Shown piece by piece: positions 864 to 1,138 of a stretch of DNA of 34,598 bases. Below the pieces are notes generated by a model. It ran no database searches and had not been told where the DNA came from. It was given only the letters and a program-made list of their open reading frames with translations. This DNA comes from Candidatus Doudnabacteria bacterium (GTDB lineage Bacteria; Patescibacteriota; Doudnabacteria; UBA920; O2-02-FULL-48-8): positions 1-34,598 of the forward strand of contig JANWIA010000029.1 in the NCBI GenBank assembly GCA_025450105.1. The letters run 5' to 3'. A program made the translations under genes and the position numbers. Position 1 is the stretch's first letter. Each line of letters begins with the position of its first letter.

Positions 864-892
864 TTGAAAATAAACCCAAAAACCAGTATAAT
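864..892 (+). promoter_or_regulatory. Sigma70-type promoter for the folded element and tRNA-Gln
   Basis: TTGAAA at 864-869, a 17-base spacer and a perfect TATAAT at 887-892. The predicted start is near 899, so the transcript would carry the folded element at 917-1019, tRNA-Gln and the terminator at 1119-1138. It overlaps the 5' flank of the divergent zinc-finger gene. Confidence 0.75.
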
Positions 893-916
893 TATTACGA
901 TATTTTCGGTTAGCGA

Positions 917-1019
917 GGGTTTGATGAAAAATTAACCCGTAGTCCTGCTAAGCAAGGACGAGCGAGTAGGCTGCATTTTGCGGTAGCAAAATGACAGCGA
1001 TAATTTTTCAGGCAAATCC
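917..1019 (+). ncRNA. Strongly folded element, novel RNA or palindromic repeat
   Basis: A long closing helix pairs TGAAAAATTA (925-934) perfectly with TAATTTTTCA (1001-1010). It is extended outward by GGGTTTG (917-923) with CAAATCC (1013-1019), with one G-U pair. Two hairpins are enclosed. In the first, GTCCT (942-946) pairs with AGGAC (955-959). In the second, CATTTTGC (974-981) pairs with GCAAAATG (986-993) across a GGTA loop, extended by CTG/CAG. It lies between a consensus promoter and tRNA-Gln, starting 18 bases after the predicted start site and ending 10 bases before the tRNA. It does not look like tmRNA, 6S, SRP RNA or RNase P RNA. It could be a tRNA leader, an independent small RNA or a MITE-like repeat with inverted termini. 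Confidence 0.55.
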
Positions 1020-1029
1020 GAGCGCATTT

Positions 1030-1104
1030 TGGGGCGTAGCCAAGCGGTAAGGCAGAGGCCTTTGAAGCCTCCATTCGTAGGTTCGATCCCTACCGCCCCA
1101 GCCA
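1030..1104 (+). tRNA. tRNA-Gln (anticodon TTG)
   Basis: The cloverleaf is complete. The acceptor stem pairs TGGGGCG (1030-1036) with CGCCCCA (1094-1100). The anticodon stem GAGGC/GCCTC encloses loop CTTTGAA with anticodon TTG, and the T arm is GTAGG TTCGATC CCTAC. Discriminator G1101 is followed by a genome-encoded CCA (1102-1104). The U1-A72 start is typical of bacterial tRNA-Gln. It is transcribed from the promoter at 864-892 behind a folded leader. Confidence 0.96.
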
Positions 1105-1118
1105 GGAAACATAATTAT

Positions 1119-1138
1119 CGCCCTCGTGGCGGTTTTTT
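1119..1138 (+). terminator. Terminator after tRNA-Gln
   Basis: CGCC (1119-1122), a five-base loop and GGCG (1128-1131) are followed by a T6 run (1133-1138). It ends the tRNA-Gln transcript 15 bases after the CCA. The next gene starts only 14 bases further on. Confidence 0.75.

Follow-up and report, generated by a model that had tools for sequence, protein, structure and literature searches.

A dispersed palindromic element with a conserved three-way junction fold at gene and tRNA ends in one family of Candidatus Doudnabacteria

Introduction

What is the strongly folded sequence that lies between a consensus promoter and the tRNA-Gln gene in a Candidatus Doudnabacteria genome? The window analysed here is the whole 34.6-kb contig (34,598 nucleotides) of a genome totalling 688 kb. 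A first-pass annotation of its sequence drew attention to a fold of about 100 nt and offered three options, a new small RNA co-transcribed with tRNA-Gln, a leader guiding tRNA processing or a MITE-like palindrome. Many unlinked copies were to indicate a repeat, and a single copy per genome beside tRNA-Gln with compensatory changes an RNA.

Three kinds of bacterial palindromic repeat are relevant. REP sequences are hairpins of 20–40 bp with a GTAG or CGTC tag, linked to a RAYT (Y1) transposase and present in hundreds of copies. ERIC, the NEMIS repeats of Neisseria, Ype of Yersinia and Efa of Enterococcus are about 100–170 bp long. Rickettsia palindromic elements (RPE) are palindromes of about 100–150 nt with a conserved fold, found in reduced genomes.

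Results

The element between the promoter and tRNA-Gln

A consensus scan located a sigma-70-type promoter on the plus strand at 864–892, matching 11 of 12 consensus positions, with TTGAAA at 864–869, a 17-nt spacer and TATAAT at 887–892. On the same strand the tRNA-Gln (TTG) gene occupies 1030–1104 (ARAGORN; Rfam RF00005, 65.6 bits), followed by an intrinsic terminator consisting of a 6-pair stem and T tract at 1117–1140 (also called at 1117–1133). The self-contained unit of promoter, fold, tRNA and terminator that had been proposed is thus present. Divergent from it, on the minus strand at 394–804, is a gene for a DksA/TraR-type zinc-finger protein (PF01258, E 2.2e-7).

The element itself extends from 912 to 1024 on the plus strand, from AGCGAG to CGAGCG, and its ends were set by comparing recently copied pairs of elements at unrelated loci. 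It has a minimum free energy of -47.4 kcal/mol (z -5.1), none of 200 dinucleotide shuffles folded as well, and it matches the covariance model with an E value of 8.8e-18. The predicted structure is a three-way junction made up of a closing helix (917–934 with 1001–1019) and both of the hairpins originally recognised. The strong fold was therefore confirmed, and two details of it were revised. The closing helix had been described as 17 pairs; it is not unbroken, being interrupted by a mismatch of 924 against 1011–1012 and including one G-U pair. It is also longer than was thought, because a tandem G-A step and two further pairs extend it to the bounds given above. The reported 10-base gap to the tRNA is correct from 1019, but only 5 nt separate the tRNA from the true end at 1024.

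In the window copy the terminal GCGAG and CGAGC pair with each other by way of two G-A steps. The 5′ arm of the closing helix P1 (plus strand, 913–934) carries the step G915-A916 and its 3′ arm (1001–1023) the step G1020-A1021, and all ten modelled P1 pairs covary. Hairpin H1 (935–967, plus strand) has a conserved motif at its base (ACCCG ... CGAGCGAGT) and is kept across copies with paired changes. Hairpin H2 (970–998, plus strand) is preceded by a conserved AGG and contains a bulged A994 and a GGTA loop; all 11 modelled pairs covary, with changes on both sides.

Copies in a single family of genomes

When the fold was compared by blastn with 98 genomes, no relative was found outside its own genome. 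Within that genome a second copy, 77% identical, lies between tRNA-Cys and tRNA-Leu on another contig. It folds with a z score of -7.7, and most of its differences from the window copy fall in paired positions with pairing kept. Because blastn gave no relatives in other genomes, a covariance model was made from these two sequences. It matched 12 of the 14 genomes of the family and none in other families of the order. A second model, built from 39 copies, detected the element in all 14 genomes, which like the others are metagenome assemblies, with about 110 copies in total and between 1 and 17 per genome. The element was absent from all 35 other genomes of the class by the same approach, and a search of 380 genomes of the phylum yielded just four additional single matches. 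Two of these (L069 and L070) retain the core motifs and complementary stems and, judged by sequence, are likely to be distant relatives, and in L069 the match seems to lie against a stop codon too. A weak relative in another family of the phylum (L072 1501–1576, genome G172) lies within a terminator-like palindrome, with an A tract before it and a T tract after it.

Among named genomes, a pattern scan picked out Candidatus Doudnabacteria alone. In a covariance search of Rfam 15, only chance-level scores were obtained at the gathering threshold or at E ≤ 10; this agrees with the annotation's statement that no known RNA class fits, and assignment to a known structured RNA was rejected. No match was found in phages or plasmids or with IMG/VR patterns, including by blastn of the window copy, and the 19 IMG/VR matches to a 15-mer of the element are within chance expectation. 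The part of the Patescibacteria literature covered contained no description of the element, and the family appears to be previously unnamed.

The nucleotide and covariance searches that the annotation had recommended thus found both dispersed copies and covarying stems. Many unlinked copies place the element among repeats, which upholds the palindrome option, whereas a role specific to tRNA-Gln found no support, since of about 110 copies in 14 genomes only the one in the window adjoins tRNA-Gln. The copies nevertheless carry the compensatory changes that had been taken as the sign of an RNA, so the choice between repeat and RNA was too simple: this is a dispersed element with a conserved fold.

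Conservation of the fold and turnover of the sequence

Copies are roughly 105–125 bp long, with a full range of 99–135 bp, and consist of three helices, and nearly all have the ends AGCGAG and CGAGC(G). In an alignment of 105 copies, 98.0% of the cells at modelled pairs are paired, and 26 of the 27 pairs have changed on both sides. The covariation score was 0.616, compared with at most 0.104 when the partners were slid. As this alignment had been fitted to the model, copies were also folded without constraint, and the closing helix with two hairpins formed in 90 of 95 (median z -7.5). Variation is lowest at unpaired positions, namely the terminal G-A steps, the AGG before H2, the CGAG and CAG motifs at the H1 base, and the bulged A in H2. 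What is conserved is the three-way junction together with its tandem sheared G-A steps; the stems drift by paired Watson-Crick changes.

Pair cells across the copies comprise 2,656 Watson-Crick, 34 G-U and 17 A-C combinations. G-U pairs make up 1.3% in the element and 4.6% in the tRNA stems of genome G012, a comparison that is valid for the G-U figure alone, as ARAGORN draws standard pairs only. The rarity of G-U pairs hints, without proving it, that both strands and hence the DNA are constrained, or that the copies are young.

In RNA and DNA alike, CGAG/CGAG steps give stable sheared tandem G-A pairs. These steps and the GNNA-type loops are sensible on only one strand. As sheared pairs can form from the G-A steps of one strand alone, it is the drawn strand that is more likely to fold, whether as RNA or as single-stranded DNA. 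Fold energy was indecisive in this respect, with 27 of 39 copies favouring the drawn strand (mean 2.1 kcal/mol).

Variants of the structure were also seen. Two copies in genome G006 (L130 and L056) have an extra hairpin or sequence at the H1–H2 junction, which in L056 makes a four-way junction. A second subtype of about 97 bp, type B, has the same GCGAG and CGAGC ends around a different junction core (AATTG-H1-CTTAG-H2-CGT), in some cases with a second internal tandem G-A step. Searched with its own model, type B was present in 8 of the 14 genomes and absent from the genome of the window; its sites include contigs C5, C6, C7, C25, C26, C31 and C38 of G012, and others in G001, G002, G003, G005 and G009.

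Position relative to genes

Copies are intergenic, usually with one end at a stop codon or beside a tRNA. For the counts, ends were taken as GCGAG and CGAGC, and genes were called crudely, by open reading frame only. Of 49 testable copies, 35 have the CGAGC end no more than 6 nt from a stop codon belonging to a gene that reads on the opposite strand. If copies were spread uniformly over the same gaps, 12.7 would be expected, and no simulation among 20,000 exceeded 23. Within 25 nt of stop codons, 42 copies were antisense-adjacent and 10 sense-adjacent (p 1.7e-6; two copies are in both counts). The neighbours, named by eye from their sequences, are ordinary housekeeping genes, including those for EF-G, B12-dependent ribonucleotide reductase, DnaB, L7/L12, L3, S10, GroEL and GreA.

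A tRNA lies 5–9 nt from the CGAGC end in 12 of the 105 copies, six in each orientation. The window copy is the sole one of the 105 beside tRNA-Gln; others are similarly placed before tRNA-Leu, tRNA-Met and tRNA-Cys. Beyond CGAGC in the plus sense there is mild enrichment of T with no tract, and the flank after the fold in the sense of the gene is A-rich.

The same genus also harbours a different palindromic repeat (GCGACGGGT ... ACCCGTCGC), unrelated to this one, that is likewise found directly 3′ of a stop codon. It occurs after the EF-G stop codon (L150), at L192 3800–4880, in several flanks in G001 and G012, and once inside a type A element.

Probable movement of copies

The closest relative of a copy belonged to its own genome in 48% of cases, compared with 10% once labels were shuffled. 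Identity between copies at unrelated loci is as high as 98%, and the similarity stops at AGCGAG and CGAGC. One copy is nested inside an older copy (L090), and at L035 and L134 the 3′ half of a second element follows a copy.

Occupied and empty versions of the same site were compared in 12 genomes at the EF-G gene. Five of them have an element end no more than 3 nt from the stop codon, with nested elements in two, and seven have no element; the C-terminus of EF-G is essentially unchanged across occupied and empty genomes. Between two genomes of one genus, the sites L067, L135 and L081 hold an element in G001 but not in G012, and the L103 site carries one in both. At L077 and at both L109 sites, G012 carries an element of the other subtype, type B. 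Where a position is shared across genera, both inherited copies and repeated insertions may contribute.

No target-site duplication of fixed length was detected; direct repeats at the boundaries had a mean length of 1.40 nt, compared with 1.19 ± 0.13 nt after shuffling. A pair of copies at L092 was considered as a target duplication and rejected, as by eye it is a tandem duplication of a gene end together with its element. Elsewhere (L022 1609–1837, G000 contig C13; L002 1610–1838), tRNA-Leu(TAA) is followed about 120 nt on by a second copy of the tRNA 3′ end (CGATTCCCTCCCTAGGCACCA), and a degenerate element (L022 1733–1825) separates them, an arrangement that looks as though the 3′ end of the tRNA had received an insertion.

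Y1 transposase genes (PF01797) do not track the element. They are present in 7 of the 14 genomes, with none in G006 (17 element matches), G012 (15) or G002 (6) and two in G007 (1 match), and a REP/RAYT origin was rejected as the two do not co-occur. A retroelement origin was rejected in the same way, since reverse transcriptase (PF00078) neither co-occurs with the element nor follows its copy number.

Discussion

The analysis showed copies that are dispersed, amplified within genomes, sometimes nested and missing from some equivalent sites in relatives, that keep one position and orientation relative to gene boundaries, and that share a conserved fold. The fold in the window is probably a copy of a new non-autonomous, dispersed, palindromic mobile repeat family of one Candidatus Doudnabacteria family. 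A host or trans-acting recombinase or transposase would recognise the folded single strand and spread copies. Insertions would persist wherever CGAGC comes to lie against a completed gene boundary, whether a stop codon, a tRNA 3′ end or a tRNA 5′ end, perhaps because promoters and ribosome-binding sites occupy the opposite side of the gap between genes. The window copy would have landed between the tRNA-Gln promoter and the tRNA, and its transcription would give the tRNA a folded 5′ leader, to be cut off by RNase P at the tRNA 5′ end. This leader is likely to be its only effect in the window, and the copy probably has no job specific to tRNA-Gln. A more far-reaching reading, which we consider unlikely, is that the folded single strand, as DNA or RNA, is the substrate of a novel mechanism that places it in one orientation and precisely at gene 3′ ends and tRNA ends, and that the element is kept only as a shape by strict Watson-Crick covariation.

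Several observations run against mobility. The exact abutment on stop codons and the orientation bias exceed plain tolerance of insertions; the different subtypes at orthologous sites shared by G001 and G012 suit selection for having an element; and neither mobilising enzyme (Y1 transposase or reverse transcriptase) tracked the element, target-site duplication was not consistent, and the motifs belong to one strand.

The precise position and the change of subtype at occupied sites lend weight to a selected cis-acting transcript element. Here the reverse strand would fold in mRNA directly after the stop codon, or the element would form a leader or trailer beside tRNAs, and it would protect 3′ ends, set processing sites or limit read-through, with copies recruited and kept. 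Such a role would account for the fixed distance and orientation to stop codons, for the occupation of orthologous sites across genera (EF-G, B12-dependent ribonucleotide reductase, tRNA-Pro), for the exchange of subtypes at sites that stay occupied, and for perfect pairing maintained through paired changes. A precedent exists in E. coli, where ribosomes stall at REPs that lie no further than 15 nt from a stop codon (cited in PMC12306157). However, the host genes are unrelated housekeeping genes, EF-G lacks the element in 7 of 12 genomes, copy number varies from 1 to 17, no T tract follows the fold in the gene sense, and G-U pairs are rarer than in plain RNA. We regard this explanation as the chief rival, possible if on balance unlikely.

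Bidirectional intrinsic terminators that resemble each other by convergence are very improbable. The copies are strong hairpins between genes, and the weak relative L072 lies within a terminator-like stem with a T tract, but conserved non-Watson-Crick motifs and exact ends speak against this, no long T tract lies past CGAGC, and copies upstream of tRNAs and inside operons are placed where stopping would do harm. Classification as an intrinsic terminator was rejected, as no T tract follows the hairpin on the transcribed strand. Least probable, and already disfavoured by the tRNA counts above, is a dedicated tRNA-Gln leader or small RNA, for which the intact transcription unit in the window and the like placement before three other tRNAs speak, and against which stand the abutment of most copies on protein genes and the equal split of tRNA-adjacent copies between orientations.

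Several known systems come close to the element. Like REPs and REPINs it is short, intergenic, dispersed, non-autonomous and often at stop codons, and H2 is preceded by GTAG or GCAG, with an imperfect stem. It differs in forming a three-way junction of 99–135 bp in place of a 20–40 bp hairpin with a tag, G(T/C)AG standing before H2 only; in having 1–17 copies where REPs have hundreds; and in its ends and lack of Y1 co-occurrence. In GTAG REPs the repeat itself can contribute the TAG stop codon (PMC3733652). ERIC, NEMIS, Ype and Efa are dispersed, foldable, co-transcribed with flanking genes and found near gene 3′ ends (PMC1590033), and resemble the element in size, dispersal and placement. The element is not known to be related to them in sequence, and its tandem G-A junction fold, strict pair-wise turnover and occurrence in Candidatus Doudnabacteria, with likely relatives elsewhere in the phylum, set it apart from them by description. 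RPEs share a conserved palindromic fold in reduced genomes, but can sit in frame in coding sequences, whereas the Doudnabacteria copies are intergenic with one end at a stop.

An integron attC site is likewise a structure-conserved, sequence-variable palindrome immediately after a stop codon. The element lacks RYYYAAC and GTTRRRY core sites and cassette arrays and forms a three-way junction, and attC was rejected on the AGCGAG and CGAGCG ends of nearly all copies and the missing R′ and R″ core sites. A classical MITE derived from a DDE transposon would fit the terminal inverted repeats AGCGAG and CGAGCG, in which the tandem G-A step is the imperfect part, and was rejected for want of a target-site duplication of fixed length. 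Because the defining features of REP/RAYT, attC, classical MITEs and terminators fail where tested, the element is placed as a new family of the intergenic palindromic repeat kind. Our best reading is that it is comparable to REP and ERIC, has an unusual junction fold and is carried into transcripts.

In the Candidate Phyla Radiation, where the biology of non-coding repeats seems little described, the element appears to represent a dispersed, structured family that had no name before. Annotators could mask or model it in Doudnabacteria genomes with the covariance model. Its strict paired turnover, near absence of G-U pairs and orientation-locked abutment on stop codons are testable clues to how small palindromes spread and settle in streamlined genomes.
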